Source: Desulfovibrio sp. (GTDB lineage Bacteria; Desulfobacterota; Desulfovibrionia; Desulfovibrionales; Desulfovibrionaceae). Taken from it: a DNA stretch of 64,000 nt. Position numbers and translations under genes: made by a program. Of this stretch, positions 13,947 to 18,756 are shown one piece after another. The stretch spans positions 1 through 64,000 of the forward strand of contig JAITHT010000012.1 in NCBI GenBank assembly GCA_031279825.1, read 5' to 3'. How positions within the stretch are numbered: the first letter of the stretch is position 1; the number at the start of each line of letters is the position of its first letter. The notes beneath the pieces are model-generated. The model made no database searches. It worked only from the letters and a program-made list of their open reading frames with translations, and had not been told where the DNA came from.

Positions 13947-15035
13947 CTACTCCTGTCTGCCTGAAGGATAGCTGCCCAGAACACGCAGGCTCAGGCAGTG
14001 TTCTTCCAGAGATTCGAGGATCCCAGCGTATTCTTTGTTAAATATATCGCATTCAAGATCGGCGAAAAAAATGTACTTCCAGTTATCCCCCTGAGGCCGC
14101 GACTCCAATTTGCGCATATTAATGCTTTTATCGGCCAGACATTGCAGTACCCTGAACAGACTGCCGGGTTTATCGGCCACGGAAAAAAGCAGCGACGTCT
14201 TATCCGCGCCGGGACGATCCGCCGGATTGCGCCCCACGACAGCGAAGCGAGTCCAGTTACCGGGCTGATCTTCCATTCCATTGGCAAGCAGATGCAAGCC
14301 GAGTTCTGCGGCGAGGTCCGCATGCGCGATAGCGGCCGCCCCCGCTTCTTCGGCCACATGATGGGCCGCCGCCGCGGTGCTTTCCAACGGCGCCACTCTG
14401 GCGCGCGGCAGATTGCGCATAAGCCAGTTGGCGCACTGGGCCAAAGGCTGAGGGTGGGAGTACACCACGTTGACGGAAGCCAAATCCCGCTCGCGGGAGA
14501 GCAGGCTGTGCCGTATCCGGCAGTATGTTTCCGTCCGGATATGCAACGGGTGTTTCATAAATAAATCAAAGCTCTGGCCGACGCTTCCCTGGAGAGAATT
14601 TTCAAGGGGCACCACACCGATATCGCAATCTCCGGACTCCACCGCCTGAAACACCATAGGCAGGTTGTGCTGCGGGTGAAAAGAGGCGAGGCTGCCCAAA
14701 AGCGCCCGCCCCGCCATGTGGGAAAAGGTGCCCTCCGGTCCGAGAAAGGCCACTCGCTGGGGACTCTGCAAATAGCGGGATGAGGACAGTATTTCCCGGT
14801 AAATGGCCCGCAGGTGGGATTCCGGCAAAGGACCGGCGCTGCAGGTCGCCAGTGTTTTCAAAAGCTCCGCTTCACGCCCAGGACGAAAGATTGGGGAAGC
14901 GGCGCTGCCGCGCTTAAGCGAGCCTACGTCCAAACTGAGGGTGGCCCGCTTGTTCAGCAACGCCACCAGAGAACGATCAACCTCGCTTATGGCCGCCCGC
15001 AGTTCCTCAAGAGAATGTTCCGGATTTGCCGCCAT
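13947..15035 (-). CDS. pheA: Bifunctional chorismate mutase / prephenate dehydratase
   Basis: 362 residues from ATG 15035 (GAAGG site upstream, inside the end of the preceding gene). An AroQ chorismate mutase domain is at about 5-90 ('LEELRAAISEVDRSLVALLNKRATLSLDVG'). The prephenate dehydratase domain spans about 100-275 ('VAFLGPEGTFSHMAGRALLG', 'PLENSLQGSVGQSFDLF', 'ENWTRF'-type motif 'NWTRFAVVGR'). A C-terminal ACT domain ('TSLLFSVADKPGSLFRVLQCLADKSINMRKLESRP') senses phenylalanine. It makes phenylpyruvate from chorismate. Third gene of the attenuated aromatic operon, 5 bases after the DHQ synthase stop. Confidence 0.96.
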   Translation of the reverse strand: MAANPEHSLEELRAAISEVDRSLVALLNKRATLSLDVGSLKRGSAASPIFRPGREAELLKTLATCSAGPLPESHLRAIYREILSSSRYLQSPQRVAFLGPEGTFSHMAGRALLGSLASFHPQHNLPMVFQAVESGDCDIGVVPLENSLQGSVGQSFDLFMKHPLHIRTETYCRIRHSLLSRERDLASVNVVYSHPQPLAQCANWLMRNLPRARVAPLESTAAAAHHVAEEAGAAAIAHADLAAELGLHLLANGMEDQPGNWTRFAVVGRNPADRPGADKTSLLFSVADKPGSLFRVLQCLADKSINMRKLESRPQGDNWKYIFFADLECDIFNKEYAGILESLEEHCLSLRVLGSYPSGRQE

Positions 15036-15040
15036 GCCCG

Positions 15041-16081
15041 TCAGCCTTCTTTGATGTCTTCGCTGATACGAATACCGAAATGCCGCCCCGCCGTATCCGT
15101 ACGGCACAAGACCGTATCTCCTTCCTTAAGGGCCGCCACGCTCACGCTTTTTCCCTCAGGGGTAACCAGACGAATGGTTTCGGCATTTTGCAGAAACACC
15201 GCTCCGCCGGAAGAAACGCTCTCCTTCCCGCTCCTGACGATCTCCGCTTCCACCATCAACATCGGCCGGCGCTCCACCTTGACTCTGCCCACGACAGCCT
15301 GAAAAGCGGCTCCCGTATAATCCACGATCAACACTTCGCTGCCGGCCCTCAATTCGTCGAGGTAGGCGGTACGATCCTCCGGCATAAGGGCATAGGAGTG
15401 CACGCCGCCGGCATTCACCCGAAAAGGACGGGAGGCCACATATTCATTGGGCTCGGTTTCAGCGTTCACCAAAAAGGTGAACGAAGCCGAATTACCCACC
15501 AGCATCCCTTGGCCGGCACGCATACGGGTAGTGGTGTCCACGCAGACCCTGTGCCCCATGCCGGCATGGCTGATGCGCGTGATAACGGCCGGGGTCAGGG
15601 AGACGGCGCCGGATTCGTTCTTGACGGCGGCTATAATAGCCTTGAGGTCCGGCAGGGCTTCCCGAAGGATCACCATGGCTTCCACTCCATGCTCCAGTAC
15701 TCCTCTGGCGAGCTCGGCTTCTTCCAGGCAGCCCACCTCCACAGCGATACCCGGAGAAGAAGCCAGAAGATTCTCCAGGGGAATGATCTCCCACCCGCCG
15801 GCCAGGACCACCAGACGGGAGAGTTCCGACAAGGGTTCTCCCGGCCCGGCGGCAGAGCGGCCGCGGGCGGCACGGACAAGTTCGGCTGCCCGTTCTTCAT
15901 CGGCTTTGCCGCCCAAAGCTATTCTATCGACGTCCGATTCCGCGAACACGGCGCATCTGGCCAGACTTCTCGCGGCGGCTACCTTGTGATCCGGCACAAT
16001 CAGGCCGTCCACTCCGGCCTCCAGAGCTCTGGTAATGTCCTCAATGACATAGGGGATTGAACGGTAATATACCCGGCGCAT
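15041..16081 (-). CDS. 3-dehydroquinate synthase II (archaeal-type)
   Basis: 346 residues. Converts 2-amino-3,7-dideoxy-D-threo-hept-6-ulosonate to 3-dehydroquinate with NAD, replacing AroB in organisms using the alternative shikimate entry. Typical sequence blocks are 'GVDGLIVPDHKVAAARSLA', 'GMGHRVCVDTTTRMRAGQGMLVGN', 'EPNEYVASRPFRVNAGGVHSY' and 'EDRTAYLDELRAGSEVLIVDY'. The start overlaps the upstream ADH synthase stop by one base (TGATG), so the pair is coupled. Known from methanogens, Aquifex and Desulfovibrio; no conventional aroB or DAHP synthase is seen in the window. Confidence 0.93.
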   Translation of the reverse strand: MRRVYYRSIPYVIEDITRALEAGVDGLIVPDHKVAAARSLARCAVFAESDVDRIALGGKADEERAAELVRAARGRSAAGPGEPLSELSRLVVLAGGWEIIPLENLLASSPGIAVEVGCLEEAELARGVLEHGVEAMVILREALPDLKAIIAAVKNESGAVSLTPAVITRISHAGMGHRVCVDTTTRMRAGQGMLVGNSASFTFLVNAETEPNEYVASRPFRVNAGGVHSYALMPEDRTAYLDELRAGSEVLIVDYTGAAFQAVVGRVKVERRPMLMVEAEIVRSGKESVSSGGAVFLQNAETIRLVTPEGKSVSVAALKEGDTVLCRTDTAGRHFGIRISEDIKEG

Positions 16082-16881
16082 CAGTCTTCACCCACCACGG
16101 AAAGAGCCTGTTCAACCGTCCAGCTGGCGTGCACAATGCCGGAAAGAGCGGCCACCAGCATCCGCGGACGGGAATGCTGAAAGACATTGCGGCCGACGGA
16201 CAGACCGGCGGCCCCGGCGCGTATGCTGTCATGCACCAACTGAAGAAACTCGCGTGTGGATCCCATCTTCGCCCCCCCGGCAATGACAACAGGGATACAA
16301 CAACTTTCAACCACATGAGCAAAACTGTCTATATTGCCGCAGTACGGCACTTTGACGATATCCGCCCCCAGTTCCACGGCCACCCGGGCGCAGTGAGCCA
16401 CCACATCCGGATCGAAACCATCCGTAACCAGCGGACCACGGGCGTACACCATGGCCAGCAGGGGAAGCCCCCAGTCCTGGGCTTCACTGGCCACTCGCCC
16501 GAGATCGGCCAGCATGGTCCCTTCGGCCACATCCCCTATGTTCAGATGTACGGAAACGCCGTCCGCGCCCAGCTTCAACGCGTCTTCCACCGAAGCGACC
16601 AATGTTTTGGAATTTGCATTGGGCGACAGATTGCTGCTGCCCGAAAGATGCACGATAAGCCCGATGTCGCGCCCGCCATGACGATGGCCGCAACGAACAA
16701 GTCCCTTATGCATGAGTACGGCGTCGGCGCCTCCCTCGGCCACTTCGCTCACCGCGATTTTCGCATCCACCAGACCGGGGATGGGGCCGACACTTACCCC
16801 GTGATCCATGGGCACGATAATGCAGCGTTTGGTGTTGCGGTTAAAGATCCGTTCCATTCGAATGGATTTCCCGATGTGCAT
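16081..16881 (-). CDS. 2-amino-3,7-dideoxy-D-threo-hept-6-ulosonate (ADH) synthase
   Basis: 266 residues, fructose-bisphosphate aldolase class I-like TIM barrel (DeoC/LacD superfamily). First step of the alternative shikimate route, joining a 6-deoxy-ketose phosphate to aspartate semialdehyde. Motifs: 'CIIVPMDHGVSVGPIPGL' at the start, 'GADGVSVHLNIGD', Schiff-base Lys in 'GADIVKVPYCG' and 'VVIAGGAKMG' for phosphate binding. AAGGAA lies nine bases before the ATG. First structural gene after the aromatic leader and attenuator at 16976-17140; followed directly by DHQ synthase II and pheA. Confidence 0.93.
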   Translation of the reverse strand: MHIGKSIRMERIFNRNTKRCIIVPMDHGVSVGPIPGLVDAKIAVSEVAEGGADAVLMHKGLVRCGHRHGGRDIGLIVHLSGSSNLSPNANSKTLVASVEDALKLGADGVSVHLNIGDVAEGTMLADLGRVASEAQDWGLPLLAMVYARGPLVTDGFDPDVVAHCARVAVELGADIVKVPYCGNIDSFAHVVESCCIPVVIAGGAKMGSTREFLQLVHDSIRAGAAGLSVGRNVFQHSRPRMLVAALSGIVHASWTVEQALSVVGED

Positions 16882-16975: not shown

Positions 16976-17010
16976 ATAAAAAAGCCGCCGGCCTTACGCC
17001 CGCGGCTTTC
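16976..17010 (-). terminator. Attenuator terminator of the aromatic operon
   Basis: On the minus strand the arm read from 17009 (AAAGCCG, extending into CGGGC) pairs with GGCCGGCGGCTTT ending at 16981, with one mismatch and a 5-base loop, and is followed by a U-rich run (plus-strand A tract 16977-16983). It lies 95 bases before the first structural gene, so it can only work as an attenuator. Its 5' arm contains CCGCGGGC (16998-17005), which can instead pair with GCCCGCGG at 17055-17062 in the leader. Confidence 0.8.
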
Positions 17011-17062
17011 GAGAAGTTGGTTTCGTCTGATTATGCAGTTACACCAATCCTCCACCGCGGGC
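16998..17062 (-). promoter_or_regulatory. Antiterminator pairing in the aromatic leader
   Basis: GCCCGCGG (minus strand, 17062-17055, the Ala-Arg-Gly codons just after the aromatic run) is perfectly complementary to CCGCGGGC (17005-16998), the 5' arm of the terminator. A ribosome stalled on the aromatic codons would leave this region free to pair and so disrupt the terminator. The two structures share bases and are mutually exclusive. Confidence 0.75.
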
Positions 17063-17140
17063 TTTGCCGAACCAAAAATAAAAGAATCCGTAAAAAAACG
17101 GAGAAGGTTGCGCAAATCGGGTGGAAAAAGTTGTCATCAT
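17039..17140 (-). CDS. Aromatic amino acid leader peptide
   Basis: A 33-codon ORF with ATG at 17140 (or 17137) and TAA at 17039-17041. The central stretch reads FFYGFFYFWF: six Phe, two Tyr and one Trp in ten codons, with two further Phe upstream, far beyond chance. It is followed immediately by the antiterminator and terminator and then by genes for aromatic biosynthesis, the layout of ribosome-mediated attenuation. The mix of all three aromatic residues suits an operon whose first two enzymes feed the common pathway and whose third makes phenylalanine. A Shine-Dalgarno is weak (AAGTAACAG about 15 bases upstream). Confidence 0.85.
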   Translation of the reverse strand: MMTTFSTRFAQPSPFFYGFFYFWFGKARGGGLV

Positions 17141-17217
17141 CAATATCGCACGCTGTTACTTAAAAAATAGGGAAAAGATGCTTCATGCGCGAAACACACG
17201 CTGCATGATAGCGTATG

Positions 17218-17244
17218 TCTATACCGGCGACGGAAAAAAGTCAA
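17218..17244 (-). promoter_or_regulatory. Probable sigma-70 promoter of the aromatic leader
   Basis: On the minus strand TTGACT (17244-17239) is followed after 15 bases by TATAGA (17223-17218). The spacing is short of the ideal 17, but both hexamers are good and they sit about 75 bases before the leader-peptide ATG. Confidence 0.5.
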
Positions 17245-17337: not shown

Positions 17338-18501
17338 CTATTGACAGAATACAGCGGACACCTCCGCCATTACGTCGCCGACGGGTAGCTGCTGGGGGCA
17401 TTTAGCCTCGCATTCGCCGCAATGCAGACAGCGGTCGGCCATTTCATCCACTTCAAGCACCAAATGCTTGTACACATATTGAATATGTCCCCGCGCCGTT
17501 GCATCGTCCGTCAAAAAATAATCGTTATACATCATAAAATTTCTGGGGATATTCACGCCCCGCGGGCAAGGCAGGCAATAGCCGCAAGCGGTGCAGGGAA
17601 CTTTGATCCGGCGCGAGAACTCACCGCGGACAGCCTCTATGGCGGCCTTGTCTCCATCTGTCAACGGTCCGGCGTTACAGGCGATGCCGAGATTTTCCTC
17701 AACATGTTCCATACTGCTCATGCCGCTTAAGACCACGGATACTTCCGGCTGGTCCCACAGCCAGCGCAAAGCCCAGTCCGCCAGGGACCAATCGGGTCTG
17801 GCCCCGGCAAGGCGGGCACGCAAAACCTCAGGCATCTGGTTAATCAGAAAACCGCCGCGCAGGGGCTCCATAATCACCACGCCCATGCCTTTTCCGGCGG
17901 CCGATTTGAGCCCGGCTTCCCCCGCCTGATACTCCCTGTCCAGATAGTTGTATTGAATCTGGACAAACTCCCAGTCATAGCCTTCTACTATCTCCTGAAA
18001 AACGGAGAAGCGATCATGGAAAGAAAAGCCCACATGTCTGATGCGACCGTCTTTTCGCGCTTCTTCAAAAAAACCCGCGAGATCGGCTGCTTGCATGGCA
18101 GGCCAGTAACGGGCGTTCAGAGTATGGGCAAGATAGAAGTCAATGTGCGCGCTTTGCAGACGCTTCAACTGCATATCCAGTATCCGATTCATGTCCGCCC
18201 GTGTTTTGACCAGCCACGTGGGCAGCTTGGTCGCCACCTTGACCCTGTTCCGGTAGCCCCCAAGCAATGCCTTGCCCACCATGGGCTCGGAAGCGCCGGG
18301 TTCAGCAAAGCCCCCACTCCCGTGATAGGGCCAGGCCGTGTCCAGATAGGTGACTCCCCGATCAACGGCCCTGCGGATCATGGCAATGGCCAAGTCCTCG
18401 TCGATGCAGGAAGGATCCGGGCCGGCAACGGGCAGACGCATGCAGCCGAAGCCCAGGATGGAAGCCGTTTCGCCTGTTTTACCCACAAGTCTCTGGTGCA
18501 T
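17338..18501 (-). CDS. Aldo/keto reductase with C-terminal ferredoxin-type Fe-S domain
   Basis: 387 residues from ATG 18501; a GTG at 18537 would add 12 residues and cannot be excluded. The N-terminal 300 residues form an AKR barrel ('LGFGCMRLPV', 'YLDTAWPYHGSG', catalytic Tyr in 'AWPYHG', 'KVATKLPTWLV'). The C-terminal part has CTACGYCLPCPRGVNIP and CLHCGECEAKCPQQLPV, two CxxCxxC...CP sets for 4Fe-4S binding, as in the COG1453 'predicted oxidoreductase' family of anaerobes. Substrate unknown. It lies upstream of, and on the same strand as, the aromatic leader, which has its own promoter. Confidence 0.9.
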   Translation of the reverse strand: MHQRLVGKTGETASILGFGCMRLPVAGPDPSCIDEDLAIAMIRRAVDRGVTYLDTAWPYHGSGGFAEPGASEPMVGKALLGGYRNRVKVATKLPTWLVKTRADMNRILDMQLKRLQSAHIDFYLAHTLNARYWPAMQAADLAGFFEEARKDGRIRHVGFSFHDRFSVFQEIVEGYDWEFVQIQYNYLDREYQAGEAGLKSAAGKGMGVVIMEPLRGGFLINQMPEVLRARLAGARPDWSLADWALRWLWDQPEVSVVLSGMSSMEHVEENLGIACNAGPLTDGDKAAIEAVRGEFSRRIKVPCTACGYCLPCPRGVNIPRNFMMYNDYFLTDDATARGHIQYVYKHLVLEVDEMADRCLHCGECEAKCPQQLPVGDVMAEVSAVFCQ

Positions 18502-18756
18502 GGAGTGTGTTTCTTCTATGATTGATAGCAATTTCACAATGAAACCGCTGATGATTCTGAAGCATTACCCTTACTCCTTTCCAGGTCAAGAGAAAAAATT
18601 GTGGACAAAGCGGCATTGACAACGATGGTTTCGTGAATGTTCCCCTCTTCCCTTGCTCCTGCTCTGGTGTTATACGCATACACGCGCTTTTTTTCCGCCG
18701 GAAAACGCTCCTCTGTCCGTTTACCGGCGCAACCCGGACACTTGCGGAAACAGCGT

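Follow-up and report, generated by a model that had tools for sequence, protein, structure and literature searches.

The ADH synthase operon of this Desulfovibrio sp. is very probably controlled by a ribosome-mediated transcription attenuator which, judging from its leader, would operate as an OR gate for Phe, Tyr and Trp. The operon lies on the minus strand of the window (the whole stretch of DNA analysed, 64 kb). It starts with the gene for ADH synthase (2-amino-3,7-dideoxy-D-threo-hept-6-ulosonate synthase; 16081..16881; TIGR01949, 381 bits with a cut-off of 299), followed by a 3-dehydroquinate (DHQ) synthase II family gene (15041..16081; PRK02290, 452.6 bits) and by pheA, encoding chorismate mutase/prephenate dehydratase (PRK11898, 241.8 bits), whose true start probably lies inside the ORF 13947..15107. 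These matches agree with the gene order proposed by the sequence-only reading of this DNA. Since the following genes are on the opposite strand, pheA is the last gene of the operon, which contains neither a trp gene nor tyrA.

The leader peptide ORF (17039..17140, minus strand) comprises 33 codons from the ATG at 17140 to the TAA at 17041-17039 and encodes MMTTFSTRFAQPSPFFYGFFYFWFGKARGGGLV; its codons 15-24 (17069..17098) form the regulatory run FFYGFFYFWF, which combines Phe, Tyr and Trp. Strand 2 of the switch, GCCCGCGG (17055..17062), overlaps leader codons 27-29 and is the perfect complement, over 8 bp and with G-C pairs throughout, of strand 3, CCGCGGGC (16998..17005). Strand 3 at the same time contributes to the 5' arm of an intrinsic terminator hairpin (16980..17010) with a U-tract at 16976..16983, and antiterminator and terminator therefore overlap. 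The leader, the pairing and the overlapping terminator had all been described beforehand and are confirmed by the sequence read directly. Folded separately, the two states have predicted energies of -31.1 kcal/mol (antiterminator, z -4.4) and -22.3 kcal/mol (terminator, z -4.4), and a competing hairpin between strand 2 and the early leader (candidate strand 1, 17112..17128), which might serve as a protector, is predicted at -27.2 kcal/mol (z -3.4), so that all three lie well past their shuffles. The window's own antiterminator duplex is moderately better than those of shuffled leaders (p 0.025), and the weight of the duplex evidence is carried by the set of relatives. In all six frames of the window, the FFYGFFYFWF run is the sole site with at least nine aromatic codons in 12, and no such site occurred across 20 first-order Markov simulations of the window. 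The arrangement of leader and switch is not due to chance. No clear Shine-Dalgarno-like sequence was seen before the leader start, which counts against the attenuator; no Rfam family, T-box and known riboswitches included, reached its gathering score anywhere in the window or was accepted at permissive thresholds.

Conservation in relatives had been set beforehand as the test of this attenuator, and in the comparison, which took in about a hundred relatives, both the run of aromatic codons and the pairing proved to be kept, with compensatory changes. ADH synthase was found in 140 of 149 genomes of the Desulfovibrionaceae; the sampling covered the genus and family of the window, 80 loci of named genomes and genomes with several copies, and leaders were located by searching for aromatic runs. 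These sulfate-reducing bacteria carry the same layout before ADH synthase across the whole of the Desulfovibrionaceae, in five other families of their order and also in the Desulfobacterales, and the named genomes with the leader range from Desulfovibrio to Desulfonatronospira, Desulfohalobiaceae and Desulfobacteraceae. Nearly all copies that stand first in an ADH synthase-DHQ synthase-pheA operon are preceded by a short ORF with a mixed aromatic run just before the motif GCCYGYGG, after which follows a terminator with the 5' arm GGCCRCRGGC. The few operon-first copies in which such a leader was not found are L012, L041, L057, L089 and L097; little upstream sequence is available for L012 and L089, and L041 has a mixed run farther upstream. 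A covariance model (R1) built from 44 sequences matched 26 of 26 genomes of a second set, families f2-f6 of the order included, and its best matches in these families lie before ADH synthase and after runs such as FYFWYFYF or YFWFFWYYYF.

Covariation was assessed in the 44-sequence alignment by scoring pairing per cell, with partners slid and with 500 shuffles as controls. Across the ten pairs of the antiterminator 94.8% of cells are paired, against 40-49% with partners slid by 1-3 columns; 19 cells are altered on both sides, a number that none of the 500 shuffles reached, and pair 13-94 alternates between U-A, C-G and A-U. In the terminator 99.2% of cells are paired and 32 are altered on both sides, again with 0/500 shuffles as high. 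Strand 2 is read in one common frame in 67 of 71 operon leaders and in other frames in the remaining 4, from which it follows that the constraint at strand 2 acts on the RNA. The protector hairpin 1:2 predicted in the window reaches p<=0.05 in 28 of 112 relatives and was not found as a general feature of the set. The predicted antiterminator shares a strand with the terminator, and its spacing is such that a stalled ribosome would leave strand 2 free.

This spacing is itself conserved. In 71 operon leaders aligned at strand 2, each of the codon positions -3 to -9 is aromatic in 76-96% of cases, a fraction inflated by the location of the leaders via aromatic runs, and F, Y and W interchange at these positions. 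In 62 of 85 leaders, 9 nt separate the start of the last aromatic codon from strand 2. Trp is absent from codon -3, the one nearest to strand 2 (0/71), and frequent at codon -4, 12 nt before strand 2 (30/71); among relatives it lies at least 12 nt upstream of strand 2 in 91 of 94 cases. Given the footprint of the ribosome, 12 nt is the nearest stall position expected to leave strand 2 free. In the window, the Trp codon starts 12 nt and the last Phe codon 9 nt before strand 2, and because of this shorter distance a ribosome stalled at that Phe codon should partly cover strand 2. The proposal that stalling at any aromatic codon would release the strand needs correction in that the codons would not all be equally effective. 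Tyr and Phe codons are present in 78/78 operon leaders, Phe is the commonest residue of the runs, and Trp is absent from some leaders. The order of residues is not kept; the aromatic class and the distance to strand 2 are. Of the Phe codons in operon leaders 81% are TTT, as against 28% in ADH synthase genes.

The leader and the operon are predicted to be co-transcribed from a promoter-like element that lies upstream of the leader and not inside or after it, as the attenuator would need. It consists of a -35-like element TTGACT (17239..17244, minus strand) and, 17 nt past it, a putative -10-like element TAGACA (17216..17221), which fits the TTGACA-N17/18-TA pattern of the relatives and would place the transcript start near 17208. 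A sigma-70 scan under strict rules called no promoter in the leader region of the window; the informative evidence is comparative, as TTGACA/T occurs within 120 nt upstream of the leader start in 103 of 112 leaders and its reverse complement in 3. The -35 box of the window begins 104 nt before the first ATG (17140), giving a predicted 5' UTR of ~68 nt. Of the 103 relatives that have a -35 box, 59 have it starting only 35-40 nt ahead of the ATG; if a -10 element follows at the usual distance, transcripts would start at the ATG or within a few bases of it, and these 59 relatives are predicted to have leaderless leader mRNAs.

The anatomy of the leader, its conservation and covariation and the match between codons and operon are read from sequence, and from them we infer how translation, stalling, antitermination and induction would be coupled. 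Transcription would start upstream of the leader, and if charged tRNA for Phe, Tyr or Trp were scarce, the translating ribosome would stall in the run. With its start 9-12 nt past the first base of the last aromatic codon, strand 2 would then be free to pair with the emerging strand 3, the terminator would be blocked and the operon read. With all three amino acids plentiful, the ribosome would cross strand 2 on its way to the stop codon, strand 3 would pair with strand 4 and transcription would terminate.

The sensing codons vary with the genetic context. Operons with trpE have Phe, Tyr and Trp codons in 23/23 leaders; Trp occurs in 13 of 19 leaders of operons without trpE, counted where the sequence extended for at least 7 kb from the start of the gene (Fisher p=0.005), and in 0 of 17 leaders of stand-alone ADH synthase isozymes (Fisher p=2e-11), p-values which are indicative only, since the sequences are related and independence is overstated. 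The search for aromatic runs does not inflate this difference between operon and stand-alone leaders. The runs of the stand-alone isozymes are Phe-only (FFFSFFFF), Tyr-only (YAYYYYY, YYYYGY) or Phe/Tyr. The idea that leader Trp merely mirrors the trp genes of the operon is only partly true, as the 13 leaders that keep Trp without trpE attest; the three-gene operon of the window, which lacks trp genes, likewise keeps it. In the isozyme tree most stand-alone copies fall into separate Phe-leader, Tyr-leader and no-leader clades. Where the full operon holds a tandem pair, the first copy clusters with Phe-type isozymes yet carries a mixed leader, and the codons therefore follow the operon and not the isozyme. 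A stand-alone copy in Humidesulfovibrio (L069), kin to the operon copies, carries a Phe-only run in place of the SQYWYYWF of its relatives. The separate trpE of the window genome (L178, G000:C78, ~17152) has a Trp leader, MRTRSRQFFVFRVAVLPAGLSLRAFWWWRGFCCAVMVHA, with the run AFWWWRGF and its own terminator, and the separate trpE of several relatives have leaders with W pairs or triples. The same predicted switch is found in this order with other codon sets, i.e. Trp on separate trp operons and Phe or Tyr on stand-alone isozymes.

Several individual loci deserve mention. L152, L156, L159, L161, L162 and L163 form a separate clade of stand-alone ADH synthases for which no aromatic leader was found. 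In L168 (G004:C22) ADH synthase is followed by trpE behind a mixed leader with two Trp codons (FWFGFYWF), an arrangement that differs from the others inside the same genus. L142 (G018:C5:5014-5808) is a stand-alone ADH synthase with a Phe-rich leader and a TAG stop inside the six-frame match. At ~1430-1600 of the reverse-complemented locus L259 (G170:C2:260830-260910), a sodium/solute symporter (a TIGR00813 superfamily match, below cut-off) is preceded by the same switch and a Phe/Tyr leader (SFYFYGYYFFG), which suggests a regulated Phe/Tyr importer. In L214 (~1400-1620; G005:C106) and L228 (~1400-1620; G008:C104), an iron-containing alcohol dehydrogenase is preceded by a similar terminator and by a short ORF in which Trp codons are paired; in L214 an apparent aldehyde dehydrogenase comes next. 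Trp control has no obvious rationale at either locus.

The pattern of Trp codons bears most directly on the possibility that the leader senses a single amino acid, e.g. Phe by way of pheA, and that Tyr and Trp codons are tolerated with no role in sensing. The prevalence of Phe in the runs, the existence of leaders that lack Trp and an operon with pheA and no trp or tyrA gene are all compatible with such a sensor. Tolerated codons, however, would have to account for Trp in every trpE-operon leader and in no stand-alone isozyme leader, for Tyr alongside Phe in every operon leader, and for the placement of Trp where stalling would free strand 2; moreover, leaders of single specificity do exist and look different (FFFSFFFF, YAYYYYY, FWWWRGF). 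We consider a one-amino-acid sensor improbable, and it is on account of the Trp pattern that attenuation by all three amino acids is preferred.

It is even less probable that the leader encodes an arrest peptide whose nascent chain senses a free aromatic amino acid or metabolite in the ribosome tunnel instead of tRNA charging. Some nascent chains are known to arrest their ribosome on sensing a free amino acid, as TnaC does with Trp (PMC8429421). Here no peptide is conserved, and the reading was rejected: only aromatic class and distance persist among the residues, the stretch past the run is dictated by RNA pairing and differs in reading frame in 4 of 71 operon leaders, and runs that are F-only, Y-only or W-rich are all found on this switch. 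Least credible of all is a plain terminator of the upstream gene (17338-18537) accompanied by a fortuitous ORF without regulatory function. That gene is on the same strand as the leader and the terminator is strong, but the run, its distance, the covarying antiterminator and the promoter are conserved over six families of the order, and these comparative data contradict a chance terminator.

Turning from the window to its relatives, we lean towards a wider proposal for the Desulfovibrionales and related bacteria, namely that aromatic synthesis is largely under a single modular RNA switch whose codon cassettes are interchangeable: F+Y+W for the common-pathway operon, W for separate trp operons, F or Y for stand-alone ADH synthase isozymes, with a further isozyme clade without a leader. 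The cassette would follow genetic context and not isozyme ancestry, and the leader mRNA would be leaderless in many lineages.

An attenuator has been predicted before upstream of the Desulfovibrio vulgaris operon aroA'-aroB'-pheA-aroF-tyrA-trp (Song et al. 2005, Table 7; PMC1173090). The operon is of the same type and the element very probably the same as that in the window; the earlier entry is a database prediction only, in which the leader peptide, its aromatic codons, its conservation and the isozyme pattern are not described. The sequence-only interpretation as a whole is supported, and this listing is one of three points on which it is corrected. A 2013 survey considered only the four amino acid attenuator motifs that Rfam contained at the time (PMC3766115).

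The limit of one or two sensed amino acids stated for classical leaders is inaccurate, as ilv leaders carry codons for Ile, Val and Leu and sense three amino acids with one leader. The leaders of ilvGMEDA and ilvBN resemble the present one in bearing codons for all end products of a branched pathway, in their case branched-chain and here aromatic; to our knowledge, they are not accompanied by a series of isozymes whose leaders use one switch with a single specificity each. An actinobacterial ilv leader offers a further example with Ile, Val and Leu codons (PMC1262725). The proteobacterial Phe leader (pheA/pheST; Rfam Phe_leader RF01859) and Trp_leader share with the window a leader ORF with regulatory codons, cognate biosynthetic genes downstream and a mutually exclusive antiterminator and terminator. 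Unlike them, the window leader has codons for three amino acids and precedes archaeal-type pathway entry genes, which it would control, and no homology to RF01859 is recognisable (best score 16.7 bits with a gathering score of 55). In Sinorhizobium meliloti, the trpL leader ORF is leaderless, with the mRNA starting at the start codon (PMC7298713), as predicted for the 59 relatives and in contrast to the predicted 5' UTR of the window; trpL responds to Trp only. While the mechanism of attenuation is known, neither a mixed Phe/Tyr/Trp leader nor isozyme-specific ADH synthase leaders were found described in the open-access literature, and as far as we found the aromatic triple, the isozyme-specific leaders and the predicted leaderless leader mRNAs are undescribed.

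The DAHP synthase isozymes AroF, AroG and AroH of E. coli likewise stand at the entry of the pathway, and each is linked to a different aromatic end product; their control is exerted by TyrR, TrpR and feedback inhibition (PMC5343134), whereas that of the ADH synthase isozymes would, by prediction, be exerted by leader peptides. The leaders constitute a natural series in which the same RNA switch is kept and the sensing codons vary with what the operon makes, and therefore the rules of multi-input attenuation (codon order, distance and number) become readable from evolution and testable by codon swaps. The leader codons also predict for which end product each uncharacterised ADH synthase isozyme, and one transporter, would be specific. 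TrpR and TyrR are conserved in gammaproteobacteria and absent in other classes according to a 2016 survey (PMC5343134), and the modular leader switch suggests how bacteria outside the group with TrpR/TyrR regulons could control the synthesis of aromatic amino acids.
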